Positions 1 to 20,861 of a DNA stretch of 64,000 nucleotides are shown here, piece by piece; the first letter of the stretch is position 1, and each line of letters opens with the position of its first letter. The translations under genes were made by a program, and so were the position numbers. Source of the stretch: Clostridioides sp. ES-S-0010-02 (lineage in GTDB: Bacteria > Bacillota > Clostridia > Peptostreptococcales > Peptostreptococcaceae); contig CP067345.1 of NCBI GenBank assembly GCA_020641055.1, positions 1,791,317 through 1,855,316 of the forward strand. The letters are read 5' to 3'. The notes below the pieces were generated by a model, which worked only from the letters and a program-made list of their open reading frames with translations, was not told the origin of the DNA and did no database searches.

Positions 1-2
1 CA

Positions 3-2669
3 GCCTCACTAGATGATACTGTTTCTGTAATAGAGACTAATACAAATAATGTAACATTGCATTTTGTTGAAGATTGGATTCACAGAAGAGATTTAGCTAC
101 AAAAAATGATGATTACTTTCCAGAAACTATTGAATTTACTGGTGAAAAAGGCACAGAATTAGAAGGGTATTGGGGTGTTTTATATAGAGATTTTGTTATG
201 TGGGATGAATCTACAGTTACTGATTTTAAACCAGAGCATAAAGTTCAACATGAGGAATTTAAAGGTCTATTAGCTAAAAGAGTGCCTATAGACAAGATAT
301 ACAATGATGGTGATAAGTATGGTGTTTTAAATTTGACAAACTCTATATTTGAAGCTGTAAGCTTTGTGGAAACTGAGAATGAACTTATTGATTATAATCC
401 TAAAACTTATAATGCATATACACGATATGAAGGTTTGGTTAGAAAGTTAAAAGTATTGTATAATGGGTCAGCTAAATATAGTGGTGTTGTAAATAAAAAA
501 GATGAAATATCAAATATACATCCAGAACAGGAAAGAGAAATAATAATGTATCCAGATGAAAGTGGTCTTTTACATAGAATTGATGGAGAGTATTTGATAG
601 ATGACGATTTATTTTATATTACAAATAAATTTAAGGACAACATACCACTGTATTACAGATATAAGTTAAAGTATAAAATTTATGATAATGTCGGATTAGA
701 TATAAATGGTTTGTATAATTCAGAAAATATAAATATCGTTTCAGAAAATAATTATCCAATAGATGAAAATGAGTTTAAGTACAAGGTCTTTATAGAAAAA
801 ACTAAATATGAAAATGTCTATGATGCATATCTATATACATCATTTGTACCAACTGTAGAAAATCCTATATATGTTATGTATGATGGATTGACAGAAGAAG
901 CTTATGGAAAAGATAGTGTAAATCCTTTAGAAACTAAAGCAGGTATACTTGAAAAGATAAGTCCAATTCAATGTTGCGATTTAGATTCATATAGAGTAAA
1001 TAGGTTTCAAGATATAACAAATAAGTCTTCTATAGAGGTATTTGAATATGAAATATTGGAAGACAAAAGAAGTAAAATACAAATTGAATACATTATAATG
1101 GCGGATGAGTTAGAAATAGCTCCTATTACAAAGGAAATAATAAATAAAAAATATGCGTTATACTCAGAACTTGCTAGTTTTAAGAATGAGGACATGATTA
1201 TATCTGAAAAGGATACAAATGGATATATGACAGCAAGAGAGATGTTTATGAAGTACTCATCAGTTGAAGACAGAGATAAAATAAATGAAAACTCAACTTT
1301 TAGAGTTAAATATAATCTTCAAAATTTAGATACTATGTATTCAAAAGATAAGACTTTGATATATACAGCATCAGATGGAAATGGATTTATATATGGAAGA
1401 ACATATGAAGATACTGGATTTCCAGAACAAGATTCAACTACTCTTGGAGATATTAAAAATACTAATATGTTAGATAAAGATTCTATATATAAATCAGCGA
1501 ATGGAAAAGTTTATAAAGGATATTCAGTAGTGTGTAGAAATATAAATCAAATTGTTGTGGGAACTCCTCTAGAAAAAGAGCCCCTAAAAGGTTGGTTTCC
1601 AACTATTAAATATGCTTATTTTAGTAAAAAATATGAAAGAATCGATAAAACAATAGAAATTATATATTCCATACCAGAATATGATTTACAGATATTTGGA
1701 AAGTATGGCAAACCATATATTGACATATCTGGAGAAAAAGGAAGTTTTGTTGGAAATAGTACTATTAAGGTAAAAAATACTCCAATGTATATAGAAGTTG
1801 ATAATAGCTGGAAGCCAACTAATTTAAAAGTTTATAAAATGTTAAATGATAAAGATAAAAAAGAACTTGAAATAAAAGGATTTAATTTTAAGTATGGATT
1901 TATAGAGATTAATGATTCAGTAAGTGATAATGATAAGATATTAGTAGATTATACTTATGAAGAAAAGAATCTTCATTACAGAGGCTATTATAAAAACCAA
2001 GATAAAGATAGCAAAATTATAGATTTAAATTTAAATCCAAATATGTATAGTTTTTATACAGACACTTCTAATGAACTAAATGAGATGAAAAATTCTTATG
2101 ATTTATTTAATCGAACAATTCACTTTTTTTTAAAACCCATGAGAATAATAGACAGAGGCACAGGTGAGATTTTAAAGGACAACTATTTTTGTGTATACCA
2201 TAAATTTGATGATCAAGAAGCTTTAGAACCATTTGACTTACATATAGGTAGAATTTTTGTGAGGCATCATACTTCATTAAAATCCACAAATTTAATAGAT
2301 ACTAGATTGAGAGGCGGAGGTATTATCAAAGAAATGGAAGATATACTTCGTCGAGATTTAGAGCCTGAAAGTGATTATTATTTAGATATTGGTACACTTG
2401 ATGGTAAACCATATCAAGAAAACTCTGTAATTATAATAAGAATAGATAGTAAGCTTCTTTATAAAAATGGAGGAAGATTTTCTGAAGAAGATATAAAAAA
2501 AGCTGTTCAAAAGTGGGCTGCTTATGGTAGCTATCCTATTATTGAATTTGTAGATGTAATAAGTGATGATGAGTTACCTCAGACTAGCATAGAAGTCAGT
2601 AAAAACATAGATAATCAAAAACATGTAAGACCAAGTATATGGATAGAAAATGTAAACTATAATATATAA
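3..2669 (+). CDS. Large phage tail/baseplate-like structural protein (5' truncated)
   Basis: The reading frame is open to the left edge. A TTG at 57 is only an internal Leu codon, so the true start lies outside the window and the visible part is 888 codons. The protein is soluble, beta-rich and Tyr/Asp/Lys-rich, with no signal peptide or membrane segment. The C-terminal ~130 residues (from about nt 2300) are well ordered and contain 'RLRGGGIIKEMEDILRRDL' and 'KAVQKWAAYGSYPIIEF', which reads like a baseplate-type assembly domain. Assignment to virion structure rests mainly on the neighbours: a tail-fibre protein downstream, then a run of large adhesin-like proteins. Exact identity is unknown; confidence is high that it is a gene and moderate that it is a tail component. 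Confidence 0.6.
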   Translation, partial: ASLDDTVSVIETNTNNVTLHFVEDWIHRRDLATKNDDYFPETIEFTGEKGTELEGYWGVLYRDFVMWDESTVTDFKPEHKVQHEEFKGLLAKRVPIDKIYNDGDKYGVLNLTNSIFEAVSFVETENELIDYNPKTYNAYTRYEGLVRKLKVLYNGSAKYSGVVNKKDEISNIHPEQEREIIMYPDESGLLHRIDGEYLIDDDLFYITNKFKDNIPLYYRYKLKYKIYDNVGLDINGLYNSENINIVSENNYPIDENEFKYKVFIEKTKYENVYDAYLYTSFVPTVENPIYVMYDGLTEEAYGKDSVNPLETKAGILEKISPIQCCDLDSYRVNRFQDITNKSSIEVFEYEILEDKRSKIQIEYIIMADELEIAPITKEIINKKYALYSELASFKNEDMIISEKDTNGYMTAREMFMKYSSVEDRDKINENSTFRVKYNLQNLDTMYSKDKTLIYTASDGNGFIYGRTYEDTGFPEQDSTTLGDIKNTNMLDKDSIYKSANGKVYKGYSVVCRNINQIVVGTPLEKEPLKGWFPTIKYAYFSKKYERIDKTIEIIYSIPEYDLQIFGKYGKPYIDISGEKGSFVGNSTIKVKNTPMYIEVDNSWKPTNLKVYKMLNDKDKKELEIKGFNFKYGFIEINDSVSDNDKILVDYTYEEKNLHYRGYYKNQDKDSKIIDLNLNPNMYSFYTDTSNELNEMKNSYDLFNRTIHFFLKPMRIIDRGTGEILKDNYFCVYHKFDDQEALEPFDLHIGRIFVRHHTSLKSTNLIDTRLRGGGIIKEMEDILRRDLEPESDYYLDIGTLDGKPYQENSVIIIRIDSKLLYKNGGRFSEEDIKKAVQKWAAYGSYPIIEFVDVISDDELPQTSIEVSKNIDNQKHVRPSIWIENVNYNI

Positions 2670-2787
2670 CTGTATTTTAATAATTATACAAAATATATTT
2701 AAATGAAACTCGTTATAAACAATTAAATTAAAAGATTAATAACTATAATTTTAAAAATATACTACTAGATTAAATGAGGTGATTTTA

Positions 2788-5022
2788 TTGGGTGTTTTAC
2801 CTTCAGCAACATTGCTTACAAATGAATTGAAATTACATGATTTCAAAGGTGTTAAGTTATCCGTTACATTTGGAGATGCTGATTTAAATGATGGATATTC
2901 ATATGCAAAAATGAATTTTAGAGCAAGTGACATTAAATTTGATTGGTGGATAGATAAACCAAGATTAAATATTATAACAAGTGAACTGACTTTAAATGAT
3001 AAAAAAGTTTGGAGTGAGTTAAATCATGGTCCTAATAGTGGATTAAATGCAGATTGCCTAGATGGGTATCATGCTGTTGATTTTAAAGATAGATTGGGAT
3101 ACAACCATTTTAAACATGCTGCATTGGTGTCCCATAAAAGATATATTAAAATAGCCACATTTACTCCAAGAAGAGTTGGAAATGTACCTGATTTTTCTAC
3201 AGATGGTAAACTTCCATATCAGGGGATATTTGCAAATAGTCTAGTGGCTAAAATGAAAAATGAAGATTACATTGATGAATTTGTTAAATCTACATCTAAT
3301 TATATCGATTACACAAAACCGAATATAGGAAAATTCGACCACACTGATATGATGACAGAAGGAATTTACAACTCCATATTTAGAGGGTCTATAACTTTTC
3401 TTAAAGAAAACAGTCCAACTACTATGGATATTCATATTGGTTTATTTGAAGACCCTACAAATACAAATAAAGATGGATGGACTTGTACAAACAAGTTTTT
3501 TTATGTATCATTACATGATGAAAAATTACCATTTTTAAATGAAGATTTGTCTTCTGAAGAAAATTTAATAAAAGAAGATGAATTTAGAGAACAAAAAAAC
3601 AATGGTGGAAAAATTAATTTTGATAAAACTATAGCTGATAAAATAGAAGATTCTATAGAAAAATCAAATTTAGAAAAAGAAAATATCTCAATGTATGCAA
3701 GTGTAACTTCACCAAGTGAAAATCATGCACATGAAAGACCTCTTGATTTAAGTGGATATAAGACTCCTCAAGACCCTAGTAAAAATGACTATAAAGCTGA
3801 ACAATTTCCACCATATAAACATGAAGGGGATAGCTATCAAAAAGAGATAGATATACTAAGGTTATATCATGTGAAGTCAGATTCTACTACAGTTGATGGT
3901 GTGGAAATAGTTACTCACAAATTTGAATTATACTTAGCTATAGATGAAAAAACAGAAGTACATATACAGCCATATATGTCCAGTTCTTGTATAGTTCATC
4001 AATATCAAAGCCCAGTTACAATATCTGGACTTCCTGAGACAAATCATTTTATAAAGCCAAAGTCAATTTACGATAATAGATATTCCCATATTAGACATAG
4101 ACATTATGATTATGAAGCTAGAATGGATAAGATTGATAGCGAAGTAGAGGAAATTTGGGATACTTTTGACTATTATGTTGTAATAGCTCAAGGAAGTGAT
4201 AATGCTAGAAAAATTCTTATGACAGATGATAATGGAAATGTTTTTTGTTCAAATGATAATATGGAAAGGCACACTGATTATAGGAGAAATGGTTCAAGAG
4301 TTTTAGTTAGTGATACAAATAAGTGTATTAGTGAAAGTTCTGTTACAACTAGGGAACTTGCTCAACTTAAAGAGGTAAGAGCCAATGTTCAAGAACAGTT
4401 AGACGAACTAAGAGATGATATTGATGATATAAAAAGAGACATAATCAATATAGAAAATGAAATTAAAAATATTAAAAAAGATTATGTCAAAAGACGAGGG
4501 GATTCTATGTATGGAGATTTAACTATGATTCAAAATTCTAAGATAGTTATAACTGATGAAGGAAATAGAAAAATATCATTACGTGGAGATATGGAAGGTG
4601 CTCTAAATGCTGATAGTGATGGAGAGATTGACCATTTTTGTTTATATGATGAAGCTATTAAGTACACAGATCATAATAAAAAGGAGAGGGTAGGTAGACG
4701 AATATTATCATATAGGCCTCAAGATGGAAATGGTGGATGTGTGTGGTTTTTTAATAATTCTATCCGTCTTGGAGATGGATTTGGCCTACCAGGTCCTAAA
4801 TTTTCATTATCTTATTGTCCTCCTGGAGACTATCCTCCATTTAAAAAACCTAAAGTAGGTGATATATGGATAAAGCATATATTGGATACAATATCAGAAA
4901 GTAAAAAAGAAGATAATGATAAATACCCTATAGGTCTTTATGTTTGTACTAAAAGTGATGATGATGGAAGTAGTGGTAAGAAATATAAAGCAGAATGGAC
5001 TCCAATAGCACAAAAAAAATAG
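2788..5022 (+). CDS. Phage tail-fibre-like protein
   Basis: The start chosen is TTG at 2788, 6 nt after a GAGGTG box; the upstream GTG at 2779 lies inside that box and cannot be the real start. The product is about 744 aa. Residues ~80-98 carry 'GLNADCLDGYHAVDF', the T4 gp12/gp37-type fibre repeat (consensus like LDADTLDGxHASDF). A predicted coiled coil lies at ~520-565 (heptads around 'LDELRDDIDDIKRDI'), followed by 'YVKRRGDSMYGDLTM' at ~566-580, the classic 'YVxxxGDxMxGxL' tail-fibre repeat. This makes it a trimeric fibre or spike component. The gap to the upstream gene is 118 nt, and a strong hairpin terminator follows at 5037. No chaperone or receptor-binding tip can be assigned. Confidence 0.8.
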   Translation: MGVLPSATLLTNELKLHDFKGVKLSVTFGDADLNDGYSYAKMNFRASDIKFDWWIDKPRLNIITSELTLNDKKVWSELNHGPNSGLNADCLDGYHAVDFKDRLGYNHFKHAALVSHKRYIKIATFTPRRVGNVPDFSTDGKLPYQGIFANSLVAKMKNEDYIDEFVKSTSNYIDYTKPNIGKFDHTDMMTEGIYNSIFRGSITFLKENSPTTMDIHIGLFEDPTNTNKDGWTCTNKFFYVSLHDEKLPFLNEDLSSEENLIKEDEFREQKNNGGKINFDKTIADKIEDSIEKSNLEKENISMYASVTSPSENHAHERPLDLSGYKTPQDPSKNDYKAEQFPPYKHEGDSYQKEIDILRLYHVKSDSTTVDGVEIVTHKFELYLAIDEKTEVHIQPYMSSSCIVHQYQSPVTISGLPETNHFIKPKSIYDNRYSHIRHRHYDYEARMDKIDSEVEEIWDTFDYYVVIAQGSDNARKILMTDDNGNVFCSNDNMERHTDYRRNGSRVLVSDTNKCISESSVTTRELAQLKEVRANVQEQLDELRDDIDDIKRDIINIENEIKNIKKDYVKRRGDSMYGDLTMIQNSKIVITDEGNRKISLRGDMEGALNADSDGEIDHFCLYDEAIKYTDHNKKERVGRRILSYRPQDGNGGCVWFFNNSIRLGDGFGLPGPKFSLSYCPPGDYPPFKKPKVGDIWIKHILDTISESKKEDNDKYPIGLYVCTKSDDDGSSGKKYKAEWTPIAQKK

Positions 5023-5036
5023 TAAGTATACTAGAT

Positions 5037-5078
5037 AAAGGGATTGTTTTAATTAAAATTGAAACAATCCCTTTTATA
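5037..5078 (+). terminator. Intrinsic terminator after tail-fibre gene
   Basis: A long near-perfect inverted repeat, AAAGGGATTGTTTT on the left and GAAACAATCCCTTTT on the right, is followed by a T-rich tail. It separates the first two structural genes from the operon starting at 5247. Confidence 0.85.
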
Positions 5079-5246
5079 GTAATCACATATCTTATTTTCG
5101 GCAAACTTAAATTGCAATATTTATTTATATAAAAAATTATTAATATAATTTAAAAAATGTTAAACAAATTGCTATATAGATAAGGTATATTAAAAATAAA
5201 AGTAAGTTTACAAAAGTAAAATGATATGCAAAAGAGGTGAGTTTAT

Positions 5247-6614
5247 TTGGAACATCCCAAGATAAATATATGTAAATCTACAGAAGGAAATTTATTACAC
5301 TATATTTATAGATTTAAAAATATTTCATCAGAAACAGAAATAGAAGAATATATAAATAATCAAGACCCAATTATAGAAATATTAGAAGAAAATGCTGATA
5401 TAGAATCGACTAACATCAAAGATTTTTTACTTAGTAGAAATGATTTTCCAAAAGGATATGATGGGTATACTGAATTTACGCTACCATTTGAAATAGTAAT
5501 TCCTTTTAAAAAATTAATTGTGAATTTAAAAAATGATTTATCATCAGCACCTCAAGAAAAAATAGAAATACAATTAAGTTCATATCAAACTATAGCAAAA
5601 ATTTTATTTAAGAAAAGAAATAATTATAATGAATATGAAACATATAGGATTATAACAGAACAATATGAGATTGATGATACAATAAAGATTAGAAATAACA
5701 ATGGATTTCTAATAAAAAAATCTAATGTGGAATATAATAAAATCACCTTAGATTTTTCCATAGATATAGTTACACATATAGATATACACGCACATGGAGT
5801 GTTTGATCCAGTAGTAGCTACTATAGAAGGAAAAAATTACACATTATTTTATCAAATGAAAGAAAAGCAAAAGAATAAATATGAATATAGAGTCATAAGT
5901 AAATTTCCTAGTGGAAATATAACAGAACTATCAAATCTAGGAATTTGTGAATTATCTGAAAGTCCAGATAAAATAACTCAAATATTAGAAGTAAAAGAAG
6001 ATGACCCTAAAATAACAAAATGGAAAGAGATAAAAAGAGAAAAAGCATCAAAGGATATAAATATTAATAAAGAGGATTTATACAGCAAAGTAATAAATAC
6101 AATAACTAGCCAAGAAGTACATTCAGATGATTCTACACTAATAACTGATGGGATAAGATATGTAAAGTTACCAAATATATGGCATAAAGATAAAAGAGAA
6201 TTATTTTATAGAAAATCTAGAGTTTTTAGAATGAAAAACATATATAAAAACATATCAACAGACTACTGTAAGCCAATAATATTTCAAGATAAATTTGAAG
6301 TATTAATTGATAAAATGGTTATCTATAGAAAAGATGTAACGAATTTAAATGAAAACGAGCAGAAAAAGCCAGTTGATATAACAGATGAAAAAGCCACCAT
6401 ATTTAAAACATATATAAGGCAAGGTGGTAAGTACTATAATGATTATATAAATAATATAGAAGATAATGGTGCAGTTGAGATGGTTGTGTTAAATTCTAGA
6501 TATCCACTTTTATCAATAAAAGATTACTGTTTGTACTCAAATAAGTACAACTATACTATATATTTATATGATGAGAAAGGAAATATATCAGACCCAGTAG
6601 TGGCTGTATTATAG
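5247..6614 (+). CDS. Structural protein of the phage-like locus, unknown
   Basis: A 455-aa soluble protein starting with TTG, 6 nt downstream of an AGAGGTGAG ribosome binding site. It is the first gene of the compact 5247-17723 operon and starts after a terminator and an AT-rich gap that may hold the operon promoter. No family motif was recognised. It is rich in beta-type alternation, and the last ~25 residues ('YTIYLYDEKGNISDPVVAVL') look like the edge of an Ig/fibronectin-like domain ('DxxGNxSxP'). There are no transmembrane segments and no signal peptide, so export by a classical route is unlikely; assembly into a cytoplasmic particle released by lysis fits better, by inference from the neighbours. 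Confidence 0.6.
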   Translation: MEHPKINICKSTEGNLLHYIYRFKNISSETEIEEYINNQDPIIEILEENADIESTNIKDFLLSRNDFPKGYDGYTEFTLPFEIVIPFKKLIVNLKNDLSSAPQEKIEIQLSSYQTIAKILFKKRNNYNEYETYRIITEQYEIDDTIKIRNNNGFLIKKSNVEYNKITLDFSIDIVTHIDIHAHGVFDPVVATIEGKNYTLFYQMKEKQKNKYEYRVISKFPSGNITELSNLGICELSESPDKITQILEVKEDDPKITKWKEIKREKASKDININKEDLYSKVINTITSQEVHSDDSTLITDGIRYVKLPNIWHKDKRELFYRKSRVFRMKNIYKNISTDYCKPIIFQDKFEVLIDKMVIYRKDVTNLNENEQKKPVDITDEKATIFKTYIRQGGKYYNDYINNIEDNGAVEMVVLNSRYPLLSIKDYCLYSNKYNYTIYLYDEKGNISDPVVAVL

Positions 6615-6622
6615 GTGTACAT

Positions 6623-7108
6623 ATGTATGATAATATCAATAGTCTTTCAAAAATATATACAGAAAATACAATAACTTTTTCAAGGATAAAAAATCTAAAA
6701 TGTATAAGTTATAAATTGTATGTAAATGAAAAGATAGGAGAAAGATGGCAAAGTTATTTATTAGCAGAAATACCAAATCCAAAGGTTGAAGTGCTGTTGA
6801 ATGAAAATAAGGTGCTAGAGTACAATTCGAATCAAAAGTGGGATGTATCTAAGGCTATAAGTGGGACAGTAAGCAAGTCTATAAAAGTGAGTGTAAATAA
6901 CATAGAGCTAAATAATAGGAATTATACATTTAATTCTAAGTTTAAAATTTTATATATTCATATAGAACTTTCTCCTACAGACTTTGTTGAGATACAATAT
7001 CAAGTTGATAAGATAAAATACGTGCATAAGACTTTAAATAAATGTGAATACAGTGTAGTACCTGTTTTTGATAAACAATATTTAACAGGGCAGCACTCTT
7101 TATTATAG
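6623..7108 (+). CDS. Small structural-cluster protein, unknown
   Basis: 161 aa, with an ATG start 8 nt after the previous stop and an AGGTG box overlapping that stop region, so it is translationally coupled. The sequence is beta-rich and soluble with no recognised motif. The 'YTFNSKFKILYIHIELSPT' and 'FVEIQYQVDKIKYVHK' stretches suggest a single beta-sandwich. The position between two larger operon members suggests a minor component of the same particle. Confidence 0.55.
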   Translation: MYDNINSLSKIYTENTITFSRIKNLKCISYKLYVNEKIGERWQSYLLAEIPNPKVEVLLNENKVLEYNSNQKWDVSKAISGTVSKSIKVSVNNIELNNRNYTFNSKFKILYIHIELSPTDFVEIQYQVDKIKYVHKTLNKCEYSVVPVFDKQYLTGQHSLL

Positions 7109-7115
7109 GTGAGTT

Positions 7116-7994: not shown

Positions 7995-8029
7995 TAATGT
8001 ATATAGACAATATGGTGAGTTGGTGAAAT

Positions 8030-8344: not shown

Positions 8345-8375
8345 AATCATAATATAAACATAAGGAGGAAACTTT

Positions 8376-8705: not shown

Positions 8706-8706
8706 T

Positions 8707-10887: not shown

Positions 10888-10897
10888 AGGTGATAAT

Positions 10898-12661
10898 ATG
10901 AATAATTATAAATATAAAAAGCCAAATATATTGTTTGAAGAAAGGATTAAAATTCTAATAGATGATTTAAACAAAGATTTTGATTCTGGAAAAATAAAAA
11001 CTAAAGCAGAGTATTTTTACGAATTTAAGAATATGATTATTGATTTTTATAATAAACTTGGAAAACCATCATTTAAATTCTATGAGGCAGTATATATACC
11101 ATCATTTTCAAACTATAGTGATATGTTAAAAAAAGCTAAATATGATATGCATGTCTTAATGTGTAGTTGTGAGAAAATAGGAAATGATTTACAAGTATAT
11201 TTTAAAGATGTTAAAGAAGATACTGGTATATTAATGAAAAAATTAAACTGCATAGAAACAGAGATAAATGAACTAGATAAAAAAGTAGACTCTTTGAAAA
11301 CAGTAAGTAATATGATTTATTCAGATGACTTTGTAAAAGTTAGTAATAGAAATAACTTGAATAATACTTCTTGCAGTGTATTATATGGAGCATTAACATT
11401 AGCAACAACATCGAGTAAATGTTTAAATGACAATATAAATATACAAGTTTTAGATATATCAAATGGCTTTCCTGGAAATACACATGAAATATATCCATCT
11501 TATAATAAAATAAAATATATTGGAGAAGATGACCCTCATATATATTTATCAGATATGTTAGATGGAAATGATGATACTTGGTTTGAGTTTGAAATGTATA
11601 ATTTAGAATCTGATGTAAAAATAAAAACTGGAATGGTTGGATTTAAGTACAAAGAAGGTATAAGTTGGATAAGTGATGATAGAGTTTTAAAACTACATTT
11701 TAAAGTTTCTTTGGAGATACCTGTTAATATCAATTGGTTCAAAATTTCTGGTATACCAAGGCCAAATGTTAATCTACATAATCCTATAATAAAAAGAATA
11801 GTTGTAAGAGATAAATATGAAAATGCTCAAATATTACAATTAAATCAATATCTAGATGAAGAGCATATAATAACATTTGAATCGAGTATAGTTAAAGAAA
11901 TTATAGTTGAATTAGAACAAGAGGACAGTAATTTTACTAAAGTATGTAGAGAGTATTTTTTAAATATAAATCCAACTAGAATTCCATATTTTTTTTATGA
12001 CAGTGAGAAAGATTATGTACAATTTGATAAACCTCAAAAAAGTATAGAATTAATAGGGCTTAAATATAATCATGATGATAAAAATATAATTTATCCATCT
12101 ACAAAAACAATAAACAATTTTTTGACAAGAGAGTATGTTAAATCTCAATTGTTTTATAAAAAGATAAGTGAAGATATTTATAAATTTCAATATGAAGAAG
12201 TAAGTGCAAGGAGATATGTTATAGGCATAAAAAATATTGATCTTAAATACAAAGTTTATGATATATATGGAGTATATCTATCACGTAAATTTTTATCAAA
12301 TGAAAATATAAGGTCAATTACTTTAAATTCTAAAGATTACATACCTAAAAGATTTATAGAATATACAGATAAAAACAACAAAATTGATGATTATATTAAA
12401 TATTATATAAGTTTTGATGATGGTTCAATATGGACTAGGATAAGACCAAGACATAGAACTCAATATGGCTCTTGTACAATAGTAGTAAATAGTAATGTGT
12501 CAATTGTAAATAGAAATAAAAATGTTACATATGTTGATATGCTTAATGATGTAAAAGAATTTAGATTAAAAATAGAGTTATATAGACCAGAGGAAATAAT
12601 TGATGAGTCACCTATAGTATATAGTTATAGTATAGATGTAGGTTCGGAGGAAATTATATGA
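10898..12661 (+). CDS. Large adhesin/baseplate-type protein with discoidin-like domain (paralog 2)
   Basis: 587 aa; ATG with an AGGTGATA box, 10 nt after the previous stop. It has the same layout as the upstream protein: helical N-terminus with a predicted coiled coil (~105-140, 'TEINELDKKVDSLKT'), a discoidin-like segment around 'LSDMLDGNDDTWFEFEMY' (~215-235), and near the C-terminus the shared module with 'IKYYISFDDGSIWTRIRP'. Its last codons overlap the next gene by 4 nt (ATGA). The shared architecture suggests tandem duplication within the locus. Role inferred as part of a multi-subunit tail or spike. Confidence 0.65.
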   Translation: MNNYKYKKPNILFEERIKILIDDLNKDFDSGKIKTKAEYFYEFKNMIIDFYNKLGKPSFKFYEAVYIPSFSNYSDMLKKAKYDMHVLMCSCEKIGNDLQVYFKDVKEDTGILMKKLNCIETEINELDKKVDSLKTVSNMIYSDDFVKVSNRNNLNNTSCSVLYGALTLATTSSKCLNDNINIQVLDISNGFPGNTHEIYPSYNKIKYIGEDDPHIYLSDMLDGNDDTWFEFEMYNLESDVKIKTGMVGFKYKEGISWISDDRVLKLHFKVSLEIPVNINWFKISGIPRPNVNLHNPIIKRIVVRDKYENAQILQLNQYLDEEHIITFESSIVKEIIVELEQEDSNFTKVCREYFLNINPTRIPYFFYDSEKDYVQFDKPQKSIELIGLKYNHDDKNIIYPSTKTINNFLTREYVKSQLFYKKISEDIYKFQYEEVSARRYVIGIKNIDLKYKVYDIYGVYLSRKFLSNENIRSITLNSKDYIPKRFIEYTDKNNKIDDYIKYYISFDDGSIWTRIRPRHRTQYGSCTIVVNSNVSIVNRNKNVTYVDMLNDVKEFRLKIELYRPEEIIDESPIVYSYSIDVGSEEII

Positions 12662-14784
12662 TGAACATTCAAGAGTATCAATTAAAAATTAAAGAAGAAG
12701 AGATAATAAAAAGGCTTTTGAATAATGGAGATTTAGTGACTTTTTATGAAGTAAATAAGTTTATAAGTGAATTTTTTGAAAAGAAAATAATTGGTTTGCC
12801 TTATTTTAAGCCAATTACATTATTACCATATCAAAATTCAGATAAAGAACAGTTTAATAATATGTTTAAAAATATAGAAGGTGATTTGAAATCTATTTAT
12901 GAAGTACATAATAATCATGTAGAGTCTTTTATAGAGACTGTAAATAAATATGATTTAGAAATAATAAATATATATAATGAAGCAAATAAGATTATTGCTT
13001 ATTCAGAAATAGCAAATGAATTTTCAAGCCAAAAAATGGCTTATTACCCCTATGTTATAACTTTTAATACACTTGAAGATACAAATACTATAAACTTAGT
13101 AAAAAATAATATACCTAAGTCAACTTGTGAAATAGATTATAATACATCTACACTTAGAAATGAACTTCATTCAACCCCAGATGATAAAATAGATTTAAGT
13201 AAGTCAAATTTGAAAATATTATTAAATGGGCAAGAGATAGGTACAAGTTCAAATCTAAATTTAATATTAAATGAGGCTCTTAATGAAAACATATCATTAA
13301 ATATAATGCCAATTAAAAATGAAACTCAAATAATTATAATTGACTTAGTGTTAGATGATATTAAAACAGTATCTAGAATTGAGTTGAGCGGTTACTCACT
13401 ACAAGATACCATTATAACACTATTAATTTCTTCTGATAATAAGAATTTTAAAGAGAAGTTTAAATATCATGGAGAAAGAAATAATATATGGAGATTTAAC
13501 AAAGAAGATATTTTATCGATTAAATTTATAATTGAAAAATACGAAATTGACCAAGAAGAAATAGATAACTTAAATTCATTATTTGTATTAAACAATATTT
13601 CACTTTACAATGATAAGTATTCTAAAACTAGTGTGTATACAAGTAATAAAATTAAAATTGATGCACCTATATCAAATATAACATTAAATCCTAAAAATAA
13701 AATACCACCTATGACGAATATATCATATTTCATAGGTATAGAAGATAAAAATAATAGTGTAGAATGGAAGAATATAAAGCCAGGTGTAGCTTTAGATTTA
13801 AATCTTCTATGCAAAGAAGAAAAACTACTTAATTATTATACATCTGATTTATTTGGAAGACGTGACTTTGATATAGAATTAAAAAATTTTCTGTTTTATA
13901 TACAACAACTTCCAGAACATGTAAACTTAAATTCTATTGAAATGAGAACAGGACATTCACAATGGATGATTGAGAGGCTGAATGTAAGTGATAAATATAA
14001 TCAAGAATATCCAAGTTCATTGAAGGTATCTATAAATGACTATGCAAAACATAGAGTTACTGGAATAGCTCCAATGGATGCAAATATGATGGAAATAATG
14101 TGTAAAAGCGTATGGAATTATATGGTAATGAGTCAATATGTTAATTGTCTTGAAGATACTGTAATAGAAAATAAATATTTTAGTTTTGACAAAGACAAGG
14201 AAGTTTTTGATGTAGTTGTACTTGTAAATGGAAGACAAGTATTTAAAAAAGATAATAAGTATGCATTTAAGTTAAAAAAGGGAGAAAATAAAGTTCAAAT
14301 AATGTTTTTACTTGGTGAATTAGATTTATCCGAGCCATTAAAAACCATCAAGCATAATTTTAATCTAATGTCTTATAGTGATTATATATTTGCTGGTCCA
14401 AAAATGAAAAGAATAACGTATAATTCTCTAGTGAAAGATATAAATCCTCATTCTCTTAAATATTATGCAATAAAATCTATAGATAATATGGACAATATAG
14501 TTACAAAATTTGACCCTAATTATACGATTAGCCCAAATGACCCTATAAATATTGAATTAAGAGAAAAAAGGAGTCCACAATACCAAAGACCAGATATAAA
14601 AATTAATACAGCTGAGTATTTTAGAATATTTATAAAATATAGACATATGTTGCCATCAACAATTGAAAAGTTAAAATCTATAAATGATGATAGCTTAATA
14701 AGATATAGAGTAATGGCTAAATTATCTACTTCAGATATATCTGTCACTCCTGTAATCAATAATATAAAGGTGGTGGCTGAATAA
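12658..14784 (+). CDS. Large adhesin/baseplate-type protein with discoidin-like domain (paralog 3)
   Basis: 708 aa. The first ATG overlaps the upstream stop (ATGATG; the second ATG at 12661 is equally possible), with a GGAGG about 6 nt upstream. The N-terminal ~120 residues are helical. A discoidin-like beta segment follows, with 'VSRIELSGYSLQDTIITLL' and 'ISSDNKNFKEKF' (~240-270). The shared module is at ~335-380 ('ISYFIGIEDKNNSVEWKNI'). The remainder is beta-rich and ends with a 'VTPVINNIKVV' strand. The next gene starts inside its stop codon (TAATG). Likely structural; no catalytic motif was seen. Confidence 0.65.
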   Translation: MMNIQEYQLKIKEEEIIKRLLNNGDLVTFYEVNKFISEFFEKKIIGLPYFKPITLLPYQNSDKEQFNNMFKNIEGDLKSIYEVHNNHVESFIETVNKYDLEIINIYNEANKIIAYSEIANEFSSQKMAYYPYVITFNTLEDTNTINLVKNNIPKSTCEIDYNTSTLRNELHSTPDDKIDLSKSNLKILLNGQEIGTSSNLNLILNEALNENISLNIMPIKNETQIIIIDLVLDDIKTVSRIELSGYSLQDTIITLLISSDNKNFKEKFKYHGERNNIWRFNKEDILSIKFIIEKYEIDQEEIDNLNSLFVLNNISLYNDKYSKTSVYTSNKIKIDAPISNITLNPKNKIPPMTNISYFIGIEDKNNSVEWKNIKPGVALDLNLLCKEEKLLNYYTSDLFGRRDFDIELKNFLFYIQQLPEHVNLNSIEMRTGHSQWMIERLNVSDKYNQEYPSSLKVSINDYAKHRVTGIAPMDANMMEIMCKSVWNYMVMSQYVNCLEDTVIENKYFSFDKDKEVFDVVVLVNGRQVFKKDNKYAFKLKKGENKVQIMFLLGELDLSEPLKTIKHNFNLMSYSDYIFAGPKMKRITYNSLVKDINPHSLKYYAIKSIDNMDNIVTKFDPNYTISPNDPINIELREKRSPQYQRPDIKINTAEYFRIFIKYRHMLPSTIEKLKSINDDSLIRYRVMAKLSTSDISVTPVINNIKVVAE

Positions 14785-16493
14785 TGTCAATAACACTATA
14801 TACTAAATCATCTGATAAAGAAAATAAGGTTAGTTTAAGTTGGGAGAATACATCAAGTTCACCTCACTTGTACAGAGTATTTAGAAAAAAAATAGGAGAT
14901 GATTTTGGTAATTCTGTTGATGAAATATTTCAACCTATTTCTTTATGTGAACTAGAAAAATTAGAAAGTGACATAAAGGTATTGAATATACATCCAGACA
15001 TAGGAGAAGAAATTAGTTTTAAATGTTATAGAGGTATTACATGGAGTATTAAGAAGTCTGCTTCTTTAAAAAAATGGATGGAAGAGCCTTGCAAAGAAGA
15101 TGCAAGAGGATATGGTATGGCTAAGATAAATGTAACTCCTGTATCAAACAAAGAATTTTGTGAAAATCCAGATGATTTTTTAAAGGATACTAGTGGTATG
15201 TACATTTATGATGTAATAGTTATCGGATTTTCTAGTGGTGAAGATTATACTAATGAAAATAAGTTAAATAAGATAGCATTAGATTCTATATTTGAATTTA
15301 TGAATACAAATAGAAGTGTTATTGCTAGTCATGATTTAATTTCATCCATATTTAGAGAAGATGAAAGTTTAAATAAGTTAAGGGAGTTTTTTAATGTAAA
15401 GATTGGAAAATGGAAAGGAGAGAATATATTTTTTGATAAAGGCTATGGATTTACAAGTTCTGTATGGGGAAATGAAGTCGTTGTAAATAAATTAGATTCA
15501 GTTGCATTATATCCATGGAATATTGTAAATAAAGAAGAAAAGATAAAAATATCATATACCCATACTACATCTAATTTTGCACATGGAGATATATGGTTTA
15601 ATATAATACCACAAAAAACAGAAGGAGAGTCGAATTGGTCTACTTCACAAGAAAGAGCTGCTTCATATTATCTTACAACATGGAATAATACTGCCATGAT
15701 TCAAATAGGACACAATATAAATGATATTGAAGATATAGAGGAAGATGAAAAGAAGATATTGGCAAATACTATTTTTAGAATGAAACAACTAACTGAAAAT
15801 ACGTCTATTGAAGACAAACCTGGAGATACCTCTATTCCAATTAAACCAAGTATAACAAATCAGTATACTACTGAAGATAGAAAAGTCATTTTGGAATATA
15901 CTTCTAAAGATACAGGGAGTATATATCAATATTATGTAGAAGGAATAGATTTAAGTACAAAAACAGTAACAGAATCGAACATAGCCACCACAATAGTTAC
16001 TACAGGCATAAAAGAGTACAATTGGTGTTTACATCCTGTAGAAAGTGATATTAATCCAATTATTTTAAATAATTCACATATTGTATACAATAAGACCCAA
16101 AGAGAAACAGTGATGACACAATCTCTACAAAAAGGATATTATATGTTTAGGATTTATACAACTGATTATTCAGGTAATAAATCTAAAGTAGAAAGTAAGA
16201 TTTTTCATGTAGATGGTGAAGTAGACGAAACTTCAAACAGGGTATTAGATGAAGTTCCAAATGCTGTAAGATTTAATAATAGGTATAGGGGGCCACAAGA
16301 AAGTTGTAAGACAAGTTCGATGTACAATCAGATAGATTATAATATAAGAAAGTTAAGTGGTAAAATAGATAGATTAGGTGTAATGAAAGAAGAAGTGCTT
16401 ATAGACTCAAATTATAGTTATGGAAGTTTTGTAGATATAATTGACAATATACAAGAAGAGATAGACATATTTTATGATGTAAGGGGAGATTAG
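14784..16493 (+). CDS. Protein with Rossmann-like (DUF5057/ThuA-type) and fibronectin-like regions
   Basis: 569 aa, ATG overlapping the upstream stop. The first ~25 residues look like the beginning of a fibronectin-type domain ('NKVSLSWENTSSSPHLYRV'). Residues ~140-300 form an alpha/beta segment with 'MYIYDVIVIGFSSGEDY' and 'FMNTNRSVIASHDLI', resembling clostridial DUF5057/amidotransferase-like domains that sit in surface proteins. The C-terminal ~190 residues look like an Ig/FnIII-type domain ('YMFRIYTTDYSGNKSKVES'). No classical Cys-His-Glu triad was identified, so enzymatic activity is not claimed. The family call is from memory of the pattern and is moderate. Confidence 0.6.
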   Translation: MSITLYTKSSDKENKVSLSWENTSSSPHLYRVFRKKIGDDFGNSVDEIFQPISLCELEKLESDIKVLNIHPDIGEEISFKCYRGITWSIKKSASLKKWMEEPCKEDARGYGMAKINVTPVSNKEFCENPDDFLKDTSGMYIYDVIVIGFSSGEDYTNENKLNKIALDSIFEFMNTNRSVIASHDLISSIFREDESLNKLREFFNVKIGKWKGENIFFDKGYGFTSSVWGNEVVVNKLDSVALYPWNIVNKEEKIKISYTHTTSNFAHGDIWFNIIPQKTEGESNWSTSQERAASYYLTTWNNTAMIQIGHNINDIEDIEEDEKKILANTIFRMKQLTENTSIEDKPGDTSIPIKPSITNQYTTEDRKVILEYTSKDTGSIYQYYVEGIDLSTKTVTESNIATTIVTTGIKEYNWCLHPVESDINPIILNNSHIVYNKTQRETVMTQSLQKGYYMFRIYTTDYSGNKSKVESKIFHVDGEVDETSNRVLDEVPNAVRFNNRYRGPQESCKTSSMYNQIDYNIRKLSGKIDRLGVMKEEVLIDSNYSYGSFVDIIDNIQEEIDIFYDVRGD

Positions 16494-17723
16494 ATGAATA
16501 AACTTATCATTAATAACTTACCAGTATCAAACAGGAATGATTTTGGATATAAAGCTATAAACAAAAGTTCAATGCATAATGATAATCAGAATAATATGCT
16601 AAATGATATCCTAGATTTATTCAATAAAACTAATGAGATAGAACGTACATTAAATAATAAGATAAGTTTGATAAAACTTGAAAATGCTCAGTTGGAAGCT
16701 GTAAATTTAAACTTGATACAAAAGTATAATCAATTATTGAATAAGTATATTGATATACAAAAGTCTAATAAATCAAGAAGAAAAATAATATTACCTCAAG
16801 ATTGTAAGACTGAGGAGAGTACATTTGGAGCTATAATAAACAATGTAACATCAGATATAACTATAAGACCTTCAAAAAAAATTTCAAAATTGGCTGTTTT
16901 TGATGATATATCAAATTCTATGTTTATTCCCAAAAGTCTTTCGGTTAAGACAAAAATTACTAGTTTTGGTGTCATATCAGAACAGGATAATGATTTATAT
17001 GCACCTTTTTCTAAAGATAATAATCTATATTGGACAAAAAGAGTAGTTACAAGTAATTTCGTAGATTTTTTAGATACAGAGTATGAAATTACTCTTCCAG
17101 AGGATATTATGACTACATTAGAAATGAATGAAATATATATACATCCATTTTTATGTAGTGTAAAAAATGTATATGTAAGGTTTGGAGATTCCAGCTATTG
17201 GGAAGAAGTAGAGGGAATTGAATATCATTCAGCAATAACACAGAATAATTTAACAAATGAATTTTCAAATTCAGTTAGAGCATTTAGAATAAATTTTCCT
17301 AATAAAAAAGTTAATCAAATAAAAATAGTTTTAAGAGGTTATAATTATGAAGAATGTGAAACAAATCTAAGAACTTTTGTTTATGGTATAAAATCCTTAG
17401 GAGCTTATATAAATTATTATAATAATTATGAATCTTCTACATTTAGTTTTAAGTGTAATATTGATGAAAAGAAAGATGTAATGATTACAGGTATAACGCC
17501 CCACTTTAATAATAGCAGTGACACTGGAAAATATTCTAAAGACTTTATATTTGACGTATATTATGAAGATAAAGGAGAATATCATCATAAAATAGTAGAT
17601 ACTTTTCCATTTAAACCTCCTACAAAAAAATTGATGTTTAAATGCAGGATAGGTGAAATTTATAGTGAAATAAATATAAAGAGTATTGATATAAATTATA
17701 CCTATTATGGAGATGACTTGTAG
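16494..17723 (+). CDS. Coiled-coil plus jelly-roll protein, last gene of the structural operon
   Basis: 409 aa; the ATG directly follows the upstream stop (TAGATG). Residues ~30-95 form a predicted coiled coil ('LLNKYIDIQKSNKSRRK' at its end). The rest is beta-rich, with a discoidin-like strand pattern around 'NQIKIVLRGYNYEECETNL'. It therefore shares the layout of the three paralogs upstream but is shorter. It terminates the run of overlapping genes; a new promoter-like element lies just downstream. Likely a fibre or baseplate accessory protein. Confidence 0.6.
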   Translation: MNKLIINNLPVSNRNDFGYKAINKSSMHNDNQNNMLNDILDLFNKTNEIERTLNNKISLIKLENAQLEAVNLNLIQKYNQLLNKYIDIQKSNKSRRKIILPQDCKTEESTFGAIINNVTSDITIRPSKKISKLAVFDDISNSMFIPKSLSVKTKITSFGVISEQDNDLYAPFSKDNNLYWTKRVVTSNFVDFLDTEYEITLPEDIMTTLEMNEIYIHPFLCSVKNVYVRFGDSSYWEEVEGIEYHSAITQNNLTNEFSNSVRAFRINFPNKKVNQIKIVLRGYNYEECETNLRTFVYGIKSLGAYINYYNNYESSTFSFKCNIDEKKDVMITGITPHFNNSSDTGKYSKDFIFDVYYEDKGEYHHKIVDTFPFKPPTKKLMFKCRIGEIYSEINIKSIDINYTYYGDDL

Positions 17724-17742
17724 TGTTTTTAAGTGTGAACGA

Positions 17743-17772
17743 TTGTATTTAACATTTTGCATATGATATAAT
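17743..17772 (+). promoter_or_regulatory. Candidate promoter after the structural operon
   Basis: TTGTAT (17743-17748), an 18-nt spacer and TATAAT (17767-17772). It would transcribe a ~110-nt stretch ending at the terminator at 17869. Confidence 0.45.
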
Positions 17773-17820
17773 TAGTAGTACAAATTTGGGGGTGGTTATT
17801 TTGATAGTGCTGATTTAGGA

Positions 17821-17858
17821 TTTATAATAAAATATTTTAAGGTTTATAATAAAATATT
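17821..17858 (+). repeat. 16-nt direct repeat pair
   Basis: TTTATAATAAAATATT occurs at 17821-17836 and again at 17843-17858, spaced 22 nt start to start. It is AT-only, so chance is possible, but the copies are perfect. Confidence 0.6.
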
Positions 17859-17868
17859 AAAAAATTTT

Positions 17869-17893
17869 GTCTTTATCGAAAGACTTTTTTTTA
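17869..17893 (+). terminator. Intrinsic terminator
   Basis: GTCTTT-ATCG-AAAGAC stem-loop (17869-17884) followed immediately by a run of T. Confidence 0.75.
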
Positions 17894-17903
17894 TTTTTAA
17901 ATT

Positions 17904-17922
17904 GTCAATTGTGACAATTGAC
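17904..17922. promoter_or_regulatory. Perfect 19-bp operator-like palindrome
   Basis: GTCAATTGT-G-ACAATTGAC: two 9-bp arms around one base, in the gap upstream of the 17989 gene. A degenerate version occurs at 19362-19382 inside the sigma-factor gene. The symmetry and length suit a dimeric repressor site; the cognate protein is unknown. Confidence 0.5.
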
Positions 17923-17988
17923 CTATATACTTTTATGCTTAGATTTATCATTAATAATGATAGATAGAGCGACATTAAAGATTAGGAG

Positions 17989-18360
17989 GTGAAAACTATA
18001 CATTTATTATACAAAAATAAAAGTGAAATTAAAACAGTAACTAAAATAGTAAATCTTATTTTTAAAATTATTGATGAGTTAAAACTATTTGCTAATAATG
18101 TGGTGATATGTAATATAAATAAAGATGACTTAAAATATTATTTTTTGAAATTTGATTTACAAAATAAAAACTTGTTGTTTAATATAAAGCTTTACAATTC
18201 AATTACAAAAACAATTGTTATAAAAAGTTATGTGTTAACGGACTTGATAAGAGACTGTGAAACTAAAAAAATAGAATTAAAATTGAACTATGATGTCAAA
18301 AATATGATATTAAAATCAAAAGAGAATGTACATAAAGATATTACTGAAATTTATATATGA
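17989..18360 (+). CDS. Small hypothetical protein
   Basis: About 120 aa, Lys/Asn/Ile-rich and soluble, with no recognised domain. The only canonical start, GTG at 17989, overlaps the AGGAGGTG ribosome binding site, so initiation there is doubtful. An in-frame ATA at 17998, 8 nt after the box, has ideal spacing and may be a rare non-canonical start. The gene lies between the operator-like palindrome and the zinc-site protein, in the same orientation as the structural operon. Confidence 0.5.
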   Translation: MKTIHLLYKNKSEIKTVTKIVNLIFKIIDELKLFANNVVICNINKDDLKYYFLKFDLQNKNLLFNIKLYNSITKTIVIKSYVLTDLIRDCETKKIELKLNYDVKNMILKSKENVHKDITEIYI

Positions 18361-18387
18361 TTTTATCAAGCTTATGGGGGGAGAAAT

Positions 18388-18651
18388 ATGAATTTTACTA
18401 TTGATAAAAATATAGAAGCAAAGCATTACACTACAGGCGGTAGAGTTCCAAAGCCACCAGGAAAAGGAGAGGTAATGATATGTCAAATATGTAATAAGCC
18501 AATAATGCCAGAACAATTTTCAATAGATAAATATAAAAGAAAAAAAGAATTTAAATGGCATATACATCCAAAATGCTTTGAGTACATAGATAAAATGGCT
18601 GATAAATCAGTTCCTGGTTTACTTAATGAAAGAAGATATTTACTTGAGTAA
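18388..18651 (+). CDS. Small zinc-site protein
   Basis: 87 aa; ATG preceded by GGGGGGAG. It contains C-x2-C ('MICQICNKPI') followed after ~22 residues by 'WHIHPKCFEYI', a likely Cys-Cys-His-Cys zinc site of the kind seen in small phage and mobile-element proteins. Such modules commonly bind nucleic acid or partner proteins; which applies here is unknown. It lies 79 nt upstream of the sigma-factor gene and may be cotranscribed with it. Confidence 0.6.
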   Translation: MNFTIDKNIEAKHYTTGGRVPKPPGKGEVMICQICNKPIMPEQFSIDKYKRKKEFKWHIHPKCFEYIDKMADKSVPGLLNERRYLLE

Positions 18652-18729
18652 ATATTTCTTGTATAAATGTATAGTTTTATAATCTTAATGGATAAGAAAT
18701 GATAATATAATGCTAAGAAGGTATATAAT

Positions 18730-19641
18730 ATGGAGAAAAAAATAACTTATAAAAATAATATGCAAAAGTATGGAATGAGTGAATATCAAAGAATACATGA
18801 TTTGGTATATGAATTACAAGCTGGTTCAAGAGATGCTGCACAAGAATTAATTAATTCATTTAGAACAATGTTAAATAAGTATGTCTCTTTAATAGTGTAT
18901 GGACAATATTCTATAGAAGATTACTCAATAAGAAGTTTTATTAAATTATTTGTAGAGGAAGAAAATGAACGACTAAAATTAAATTCATATTTTGTGAATG
19001 GCCATGGTCAAAGGGTAGCAGATAAGACAGTTGCAAAAATAGTTGGTATATTTTCAAATAATGACAAAGAAGACATACAACAGGAGATAAGCGCTATTTT
19101 TTTATCTATGTGTCATAAATATAAAGATACAAAGCCGTCTTTTCACAATCATGTCAAAAGAAATTTTCATTATTATGTCTTTAGACATTTAGAAAAACTA
19201 TCTAAAGACCCAATAGCAAGAGGTCTATATTATCAGAAAAAAATATGTAAGATATATGATTCTGACCAACAATTACCTATAGAAGAAACAATTTGTGATA
19301 AAAATGCACAAAAAGAAATAGACGAAGTGCTCGATTATGTCGAGCTTTTTTATAAGTTACAATTGTCAATTGCGATAATTGAAAAAGATGTAGCTATAAA
19401 TATATACGATGATGAATTTTTAAATAATAATTGGATTAATGGAATTACGTGTTCTAATATTTTTAAGGATCTTACAACATTTGAAAGACGAATATTAGTA
19501 ATGTGGTATATGAAAGATAATACTGATTCAGAAATAGCAGAGCTATTTGGTCTTTGTAGAGGGACAATAAATAAAAAAAGAGCCTGTGCAAAATCTAAAT
19601 TGAGAAAAGCTGTAAGATTGATTAATTATTTAAAGGAGTAA
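18730..19641 (+). CDS. Sigma70-family RNA polymerase sigma factor (phage-type)
   Basis: 303 aa. Residues ~112-155 look like sigma region 2 ('EDIQQEISAIFLSMCHKYK', then 'FHNHVKRNFHYYVFRHLEK'). Residues ~248-300 form a region 4 helix-turn-helix ('FERRILVMWYMKDNTDSEI', then 'AELFGLCRGTINKKRA'). The first ~75 residues resemble the N-terminal HTH_16-type helix seen in clostridial alternative sigma factors. A plausible role is transcription of the upstream tail-like operon, inferred only from position. Oddities are a terminator-like hairpin at 19329-19351 and a palindrome-like element at 19362-19382, both inside the coding sequence. The gene ends at a terminator shared with the convergent PadR gene. 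Confidence 0.75.
   Translation: MEKKITYKNNMQKYGMSEYQRIHDLVYELQAGSRDAAQELINSFRTMLNKYVSLIVYGQYSIEDYSIRSFIKLFVEEENERLKLNSYFVNGHGQRVADKTVAKIVGIFSNNDKEDIQQEISAIFLSMCHKYKDTKPSFHNHVKRNFHYYVFRHLEKLSKDPIARGLYYQKKICKIYDSDQQLPIEETICDKNAQKEIDEVLDYVELFYKLQLSIAIIEKDVAINIYDDEFLNNNWINGITCSNIFKDLTTFERRILVMWYMKDNTDSEIAELFGLCRGTINKKRACAKSKLRKAVRLINYLKE
19329..19351 (+). promoter_or_regulatory. Terminator-like hairpin inside the sigma-factor gene
   Basis: GCTCGA-TTATG-TCGAGC followed by six T residues, within codons ~203-210. It has the form of a compact intrinsic terminator and could attenuate full-length sigma mRNA. Confidence 0.4.
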
Positions 19642-19664
19642 GAATTATTACTCTTATAAGATTT

Positions 19665-19697
19665 AGACCACTCTAATATAAAGAGTGGTCTTCTTGA
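19665..19697. terminator. Terminator between sigma factor and PadR genes
   Basis: AGACCACTCT / AGAGTGGTCT perfect 10-bp stem at 19665-19691, T-rich after it, between convergent genes; probably used from both sides. Confidence 0.8.
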
Positions 19698-19700
19698 GTA

Positions 19701-20078: not shown

Positions 20079-20130
20079 ATATTTTCTCCTTTTAAATATT
20101 ATTTTACAAATTCTGATACAGTTTTAATAA

Positions 20131-20778: not shown

Positions 20779-20861
20779 TTATATACCAAATAAGAGTTTT
20801 GACAAAGTAATATTTTGTATGGCAATATAAAGAGTAGATAAAGTATTAGGAGGAACATTGA

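Follow-up and report, generated by a model that had tools for sequence, protein, structure and literature searches.

A genomic island of about 66 kb, which appears to be the tail module of a jumbo myophage, was found in a chromosome of the genus Clostridioides. Its right third lies in the window, the 64,000-nucleotide stretch of DNA analysed here (G000:C1:1791317-1855316, from the genome G000, 4.26 Mb in one contig), and the sequence to the left of the window was inspected over 98 kb. The island spans G000:C1 about 1746275-1812110 (window about -45041 to 20794) and forms a single unit of 50 open reading frames (ORFs), almost all on the plus strand, bordered on both flanks by chromosomal genes common to the eight Clostridioides genomes compared. 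It contains a headless contractile tail cluster with fibres, which is a feature of R-type tailocins. Its genes suggest a domesticated headless contractile particle that resembles an R-type tailocin and derives from a jumbo-phage lineage, a reading to which we assign a probability of roughly 0.6.

Gene content

The ORFs were numbered g1-g50 (non-overlapping, at least 60 aa on the plus strand and more than 110 aa on the minus strand) and all were scanned with Pfam and PHROGs. A PHROG match at E <= 1e-5 was obtained for 45 of the 50, the exceptions being g5, g12, g13, g26 and g46. The original prediction, drawn from positions 3-19641 of the window (g34-g48), had described at least 12 consecutive phage-structural-type genes followed by two small genes and a sigma70-family gene, and these are all present (g34-g45, g46, g47 and g48). 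It had taken them for part of a large tail-type locus, and the 45 kb to the left of the window indeed add sheath, tube, hub, spike and baseplate genes. Its remark that no capsid, terminase, lysis or integrase gene is to be seen holds within positions 3-19641 and fails for lysis further left, where a holin gene sits 43 kb before the window start. It had also proposed a leftward extension as a check for an ordinary prophage; no capsid, portal or terminase gene was recognised upstream, which argues against one.

The 12 consecutive ORFs g34-g45 each matched a PHROG phage family at E <= 4e-7, most of these families being without a named function. The first of them, g34, starts 1,008 bases left of the window.

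Relationship to jumbo myophages

Island genes were compared with the ORFs of the first 100 kb of Moorella phage MTATph1 and the first 120 kb of Bacillus phage KLEB27-3 at E <= 1e-4, a limit that excludes weak out-of-order matches such as that of g37 to MTATph1 (E 0.037). Twenty island genes were matched in MTATph1, in strictly the same order. In KLEB27-3 21 were matched, 20 of them in order; g1 is the exception, its counterpart there being located about 3 kb ahead of that phage's sigma gene. Among g34-g45, homologues were found for five of the 12 in MTATph1 (g34, g41, g42, g43 and g45) and likewise for five in KLEB27-3 (g34, g41, g42, g44 and g45), and their shared order in both phages is beyond chance. 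A phage contig in the genome G069 contains 11 ORFs that match island genes in the same order, with terminase, portal and capsid in place.

The order sheath-sheath-tube-tube-chaperonins-hub-spike-baseplate-fibres is kept between the island and MTATph1. Both phages resemble the island in having two sheath genes, serial tubes, a chaperonin-like pair, a hub, a spike, gp25-like and J-type baseplate genes, fibre genes and a sigma gene, all in the same order. Paired chaperonin genes, an oversized hub and a characteristic gene order are among the features described for phage 0305phi8-36 (PMC2147016). The island is probably the tail module of a jumbo myophage of this lineage, 0305phi8-36 itself being known here by description; the assignment follows from the unusual features common to both and from a survey, discussed below, that gave such an element that name. 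The word 'jumbo' in the original prediction was thus apt as to ancestry. The island differs from its 0305phi8-36-type relatives in that genes for head, terminase, replication or integrase were not recognised in it, that its chaperonins and hub are not separated by long genes, and that its sigma gene adjoins the tail genes.

Nine plasmids of Bacillus, Paenibacillus and Cytobacillus (about 200-240 kb) are also related to the island, as compared for sheath, tube and hub only. Among viral contigs, a sheath query gave one match at 29% identity and a sigma query gave none. A megablast search of positions 3-19641 against phages and plasmids returned zero matches.

Missing head genes and the collapsed tape-measure slot

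No terminase, portal, integrase, primase, helicase or polymerase family was recognised among the 50 ORFs in the Pfam and PHROG scans. With the portal and capsid proteins of MTATph1 as queries, none of the four genomes that carry the island gave a match; the same queries matched the G069 control contig at E 3.5e-92 and 2.1e-68. An ordinary or complete prophage was rejected on these grounds, as a head module was found neither in place nor, by the portal and capsid queries, elsewhere in the carrier genomes.

The distance from the first tube gene to the hub is 3.9 kb in G000 and about 3.8 kb in the other three carriers (G007, G006 and G002). Measured by gene ends, it is 15.9 kb in MTATph1 (with a transposase gene inside), 16.9 kb in KLEB27-3 and 20.6 kb in the G069 contig. 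For the nine plasmid records, match ends put it at about 15-18 kb as an upper estimate, a figure that in three of them presupposes a circular record. All 12 relatives therefore fall at roughly 15-21 kb, and the island slot ends in g26, of 122 aa. A helical residue measures about 0.15 nm, and 122 aa would thus measure some 18 nm.

Among the phages themselves, the long protein that comes first after the chaperonins is readily detected: the MTATph1 version scores 462 bits against its counterpart in G069, and 407 and 209 bits against two pieces in KLEB27-3. It matched no island ORF, the best value (E 0.0079, 4.8 bits, g18 against the G069 protein) being taken as chance, and a failure of detection was ruled out by the strong matches among the phages. 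Alignment of g26 with this protein by hhalign gave a probability of 0.4% and no alignment. The gene directly before the hub, which by its position is most likely the tape measure of the relatives, encodes 1,315 to 3,062 aa in MTATph1, KLEB27-3 and G069, against 122 aa in the island slot. This gene diverges fast even among the phages (KLEB27-3 versus MTATph1, 24.4 bits; G069 versus MTATph1, E 0.73), and with the pre-hub proteins of all three relatives as queries no island ORF was matched better than E 0.29. Because it is too diverged for a confident sequence search, its loss from the island slot is argued from position and length more than from sequence, and a tape measure may lie elsewhere in the genome.

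Sigma factor and candidate regulators

The family phrog_351, 'RNA polymerase sigma factor', matched g48 over residues 9-296 (E 4e-15), and the Pfam family Sigma70_r4 scored 20.5 bits, below its cut-off of 24.1. A profile built from six g48 sequences had the sigma factor 1l0o_C as its best solved match (E 9e-5, profile positions 91-263), and FliA was also matched. Based upon these comparisons, g48 is predicted to belong to the sigma-70 family, with regions 2 and 4 recognisable. Homologues are present in MTATph1 (29% identity, E 9e-8, annotated as a transcriptional regulator) and in KLEB27-3 (31%, E 9e-14, annotated as RNA polymerase sigma factor), and by descent g48 is the phage's own sigma factor. 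The sigma gene of each of the two phages is part of the replication region, past the tail genes, with a RuvC-type gene next to it or close by. In the island the intervening DNA is gone, and g48 comes after the tail genes, g46 and g47. The PadR-type protein encoded by g49 is a candidate repressor.

Two possible signals were also seen. An inverted repeat with arms of about 16 bases, matching perfectly by eye, lies upstream of g2 (G000:C1 about 1746680-1746730); it is kept in G007 and in G002, in the latter with a changed loop, and is a possible operator. A terminator-like hairpin with a T run falls inside the sigma coding sequence (window 19329-19345); it is probably due to chance, the scan having returned about as many hits in shuffled sequence.

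Distribution, insertion site and selection

The sheath gene g20 was found in four of the eight Clostridioides genomes (G000, G007, G002 and G006). A family-wide sheath search gave five of 71 genomes, namely these four carriers and the G069 phage contig, and a class-wide search with a sheath profile gave one of 391, G000 itself. In G000 and G007 the island is bordered by both flanking genes. The same holds for G002, there spread over two contigs, and the G006 contig shows the right flank only. No island sequence was found between the flanks in G001, G003 and G004. In G005, the closest relative of G000, a 51-bp piece of the left edge is fused to the last 55 codons of g50 (near G005:C1 2061590), and this junction is a deletion scar. 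A search for attachment repeats found no direct repeat of at least 11 bases in G000 and, in G007, two AT-rich repeats of 11 bases that were taken as chance.

The C-terminal part of the G001 sortase B is identical by eye to the solved chain 5gyj, which we take to come from C. difficile strain 630, and G001 is most likely C. difficile proper. Between G000 and G001, the synonymous substitution rate (dS) is 0.48 and 0.59 in the two flanking genes. The window is not from C. difficile proper but from a sister species, so that the assignment to C. difficile in the original prediction was imprecise; the C. difficile-like genome G001 does not carry the locus.

The island is collinear among its four carriers. 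Orthologues were found for 50 of the 50 ORFs in G007, for 49 in G002 and for 37 in G006 (g14-g50, the contig starting inside the island). The gene g13 was left out of the G002 and G006 comparisons, where its matches were to paralogues and void, and other rows below 35% identity were taken as paralogue or chance matches beyond contig reach. In five of the 137 orthologue comparisons the length was less than 0.9 of that in G000: G007 accounts for two (g13 and g16), G006 for one (g15) and G002 for the two halves of g27, a gene cut there by a contig break.

Over g18-g48 pooled, the nonsynonymous rate (dN) between G000 and G007 was 0.054 and dS 0.335 (13,066 codons; dN/dS 0.16), and between G000 and G006 the values were 0.068 and 0.382 (13,066 codons; 0.18). 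For the two G002 contigs they were 0.074 and 0.361 (3,643 codons; 0.20) and 0.064 and 0.386 (9,395 codons; 0.17). These ratios of 0.16-0.20, together with the collinearity, indicate that the island is not decaying. The genes under tightest constraint include g1, g48 and g49 (dN/dS 0.04-0.10), and those under loosest constraint include the fibre-type genes g13-g17 (0.23-0.41 in valid rows). For the same pairs of genomes, dS was higher in the flanking genes (0.43-0.53) than in the island (0.34-0.39). The descent of the island looks old, and exchange between species is possible.

Features of the island and its surroundings

The features are listed in Table 1. Among solved structures, the sheath profile picks up known sheaths (Afp3, E 8e-7), and the baseplate J family scored 38.7 bits in Pfam against a cut-off of 21.1. 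The names hub, spike and chaperonin rest on position, on the homologues in the two phages and on the gene order published for 0305phi8-36 (PMC2147016). The PHROG label 'major head protein' on g21 and g22 was judged to be a mislabelling of the tube, since in KLEB27-3 the homologues bear the annotation tail tube and the capsid has a gene of its own. MTATph1 too has a separate 'major head protein' gene, and the capsids of the two phages align at 48-49% identity. The tube naming draws on position, on the KLEB27-3 annotation and on a weak match to Phage_tube_2 (16.4 bits, below cut-off); a search of solved chains with a tube profile gave no credible match (best E 0.41). The products of CDS0020 and CDS0022 in the Moorella phage record OR602862.1, there named 'major head protein', resemble tail tubes, and the name was seemingly carried over from the PHROG label. 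AlphaFold models were unusable, with a mean predicted local distance difference test score (pLDDT) of 36.7 for g48 and 27.7 for a tube homologue from a viral contig.

Among the fibre-type genes, bacterial Ig-like domains were found by Pfam in g5, g7 and g8, and laminin-G or F5/8C domains in g13, g14 and g16. Four of them in tandem, g14-g17 (G000:C1:1762227-1769811), are paralogues with a common N-terminal domain (phrog_10059) and are among the island's most variable genes. Between the baseplate genes lies g31, which has one predicted N-terminal membrane helix and a full-length phage homologue, phrog_18926. Of the structural genes g41-g43, the first two are in order in both MTATph1 and KLEB27-3, and g43 is in order in MTATph1.

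Table 1. Features of the island. Positions refer to the window unless given as G000:C1.
Feature	Position	Strand	Evidence
Right third of the island	1..20794	+	Borders from empty sites in G001, G003, G004 and deletion scar in G005
g4, holin	G000:C1 1748035-1748247		PF04531, 24.2 bits, cut-off 22
g5-g17, among them fibre-type proteins with Ig, laminin-G and F5/8C domains			Pfam
g18, sheath	G000:C1 1769995-1771530		
g19, between sheaths g18 and g20			
g20, sheath	G000:C1 1772213-1774519		
g21, g22, tubes; g23, tube-like; g24, g25, chaperonin-like pair; g26, 122 aa			
g27, hub	G000:C1 1779121-1782765		DUF6046 only (Pfam); PHROG family labelled endolysin
g28, spike-type; g29, gp25-like; g30, J-type baseplate; g32; g33-g45, large and small phage proteins			
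g34, 1225-aa tail protein, 5' end outside window	3..2669	+	phrog_28704, 1037.7 bits; MTATph1 and KLEB27-3 homologues in order
g35, 747 aa, phage protein, tail/fibre-type by position	2779..5022	+	phrog_31593, E 7.7e-101
g36, 455 aa, phage protein, no role assigned	5247..6614	+	phrog_31455, E 1.3e-55
g37-g40, four phage proteins (104-292 aa), no role assigned	6623..8705	+	phrog_35680, 28136, 36886, 30569, E <= 4e-7
g41-g43, three virion structural proteins	8707..14784	+	phrog_20243, 21108, 19683, E <= 1e-112
g44 (no role assigned), g45 (virion structural)	14784..17723	+	phrog_22121, E 1.1e-36; phrog_19670, E 4.3e-100
g46, 123 aa	17989..18360	+	No family match; kept in the four carriers
g47, 87 aa, small phage protein, CxxC motif by eye	18388..18651	+	phrog_24054, E 1.2e-20
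g48, predicted phage-type sigma factor, 303 aa	18730..19641	+	phrog_351; profile versus PDB; dN/dS 0.07-0.10
g49, PadR-type regulator within the island	19701..20078	-	PF03551, 39.9 bits, cut-off 27; phrog_25401; dN/dS 0.04-0.07
g50, 144-aa phage-type protein, right edge	20344..20778	+	phrog_35679, E 6.3e-32

Outside the island, an adjoining lysine- and glutamate-rich ORF of 411 aa (window 20862-22097) corresponds to 350 aa in G005 and to 347-375 aa in G001, G003 and G004. A T-box leader was found at window 48283-48517 on the plus strand (RF00230, 133.4 bits, gathering threshold 93).

Interpretation and alternatives

For the assembly, regulation, release and killing activity of the particle we infer the following course. 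A jumbo prophage of the 0305phi8-36 type would have inserted here in a common ancestor of several Clostridioides species. It would since have lost all but its contractile tail, the fibres that bind receptors, a holin and a small set of regulators, the host cell retaining the island as a headless contractile particle that acts like an R-type tailocin. Once repression is lifted, with g49 as the candidate repressor, the phage sigma factor g48 would turn the host's RNA polymerase towards the tail genes. Assembly of sheath, tube and baseplate would follow, the holin would open the producer cell, and the variable lectin-like fibres g13-g17 would pick the target. A more specific proposal is doubtful: that the product is a contractile machine without a tape measure and perhaps without a cell-wall hydrolase, either very short or cut to length by another rule (perhaps cell-bound and type VI-like). 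It would be controlled by a sigma factor captured from a jumbo phage together with a PadR switch, and selection would maintain it in several species.

Several observations weigh against a domesticated tailocin-like particle. The lysis cassette has a holin and no recognised lysin: g4 is only just above its cut-off and was not flagged by a crude hydropathy scan, and no separate endolysin was found in the 50 ORFs. The original prediction had suggested that a dedicated sigma factor would time particle production, and a promoter motif common to the island genes, which might have backed this, was sought and did not hold up. The heptamer GGTATAT occurs in four of 10 island upstream regions and in none of 55 host upstream regions, and it was dropped as a sigma-specific promoter when 40 of 500 label permutations gave an equally extreme 7-mer. 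Half of the genus genomes compared (four of eight) are without the island, one of them by deletion, and g15 in G006 lacks its first 170 or so residues and may be truncated. No tape measure was recognised among the island ORFs, though diffocin, an R-type tailocin of the same genus, is described as having one, together with a hub hydrolase (PMC13324602). The hub g27 has no lysin domain, and the hubs of the nine plasmid relatives are annotated as glucosaminidase, lysozyme or nuclease. Pfam, however, likewise shows no lysin in the hub of KLEB27-3, and in the MTATph1 hub it gives just a VanY match below threshold, so that, with the PHROG label of endolysin on g27, a loss of lysin from g27 is not firm. 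Such a loss need not disable a tail, as a contractile phage that infects an S-layer bacterium is reported to lack enzymatic penetration domains (PMC11948020).

The short tube-to-hub distance, set against that of 12 of 12 relatives, would also suit a cell-associated contractile apparatus, in which a sheath and tube without a tape measure have no fixed length and act from the producer, as type VI secretion or cell-anchored injection systems do. The hub without a recognised lysin domain and the predicted membrane helix of g31 among the baseplate genes point in the same direction. Such an apparatus is nonetheless unlikely, as the holin is retained and the 50 ORFs gave no Pfam match to an AAA+ ATPase or a secretion membrane-complex family; the full-length phage homologue of g31 means that its helix is not an adaptation of the island. 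In extracellular contractile injection systems of the Afp/PVC type, an AAA+ ATPase and payload genes serve as the criterion, and of these no AAA+ family was matched in the 50 ORFs. Decay into a functionless prophage remnant, to which the original prediction had also given room, would account for the missing head, replication and recognisable lysin genes, for the absence of the island from four sister genomes (one through deletion), for the shortened g15 in G006 and g13 and g16 in G007, and for the use of the term cryptic prophage for a similar element in a published survey (PMC10778935). It is rather improbable, in that lengths below 0.9 were confined to g13, g15, g16 and the contig-broken g27 of G002 and in that four collinear genomes show purifying selection (pooled dN/dS 0.16-0.20).

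The selected product could instead be a surface or spore adhesion organ made of the fibre, Ig and lectin-domain proteins, for which the domains of g5, g7 and g8 and of g13, g14 and g16 are suggestive; similar or stronger constraint on the sheath, tube, baseplate J and spike-type genes makes this a very improbable account. Least probable is that the island is a defective satellite: another phage would contribute the head and tape measure, and would either use the island's tails or complete them. A full headless tail set would be what a tail-donating partner needs, but neither portal nor capsid of this lineage was found in the carriers, and the island has no recognised packaging, replication or integration gene. 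A domesticated, headless, R-type-tailocin-like particle remains the favoured reading.

Known systems and significance

The diffocins, R-type bacteriocins of C. difficile, are headless and contractile and belong to the same genus as the island, to which they are likened by description. PBSX of Bacillus subtilis makes tail-bearing particles, and its late genes are driven by Xpf. With Xpf as its own sigma-like factor (PMC4243946), this defective prophage offers a precedent for the island's sigma factor, from another phage lineage. The X particles of Clostridium saccharoperbutylacetonicum N1-4 are described as giant headless contractile tails with whip-like filaments, seemingly encoded by an element homologous to Bacillus phage genomes (PMC10538166). 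As far as that description goes, they resemble the island in their headless contractile tail and apparently related origin; they differ in being extrachromosomal and about 450 nm long, the island being chromosomal and without a recognised tape measure. No N1-4 record was present among the plasmid matches of the island sheath, tube and hub.

A 2023 survey lists a 'phi0305phi8_36-like' cryptic prophage in DSS202 (ST258), one environmental C. difficile isolate among 166, and reports the element to be without TerL and LysM (PMC10778935). Linked to the island by its lineage label, this element is perhaps the same thing, and the literature searched held no account of the island beyond this entry. 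Insofar as the X particles and the survey element have already been reported, the kind of element is known. New, as far as the literature searched shows, are its full anatomy, the collapsed tape-measure slot, the history of the sigma factor, the common site with its deletion scar and the evidence of selection.

If particles are made, a bacterial chromosome would have taken over the tail of a jumbo phage, and the island would be a natural test of how a contractile tail sets its length without a recognisable tape measure. The sigma gene, which outlasted everything else in the replication region and now stands next to the tail genes, would be a clear example of a regulator domesticated together with the structural genes that belong to it. 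If the proposed reading is true, Clostridioides would have a second, unrelated type of contractile particle; such particles are being sought in this genus as narrow-spectrum antibacterials.

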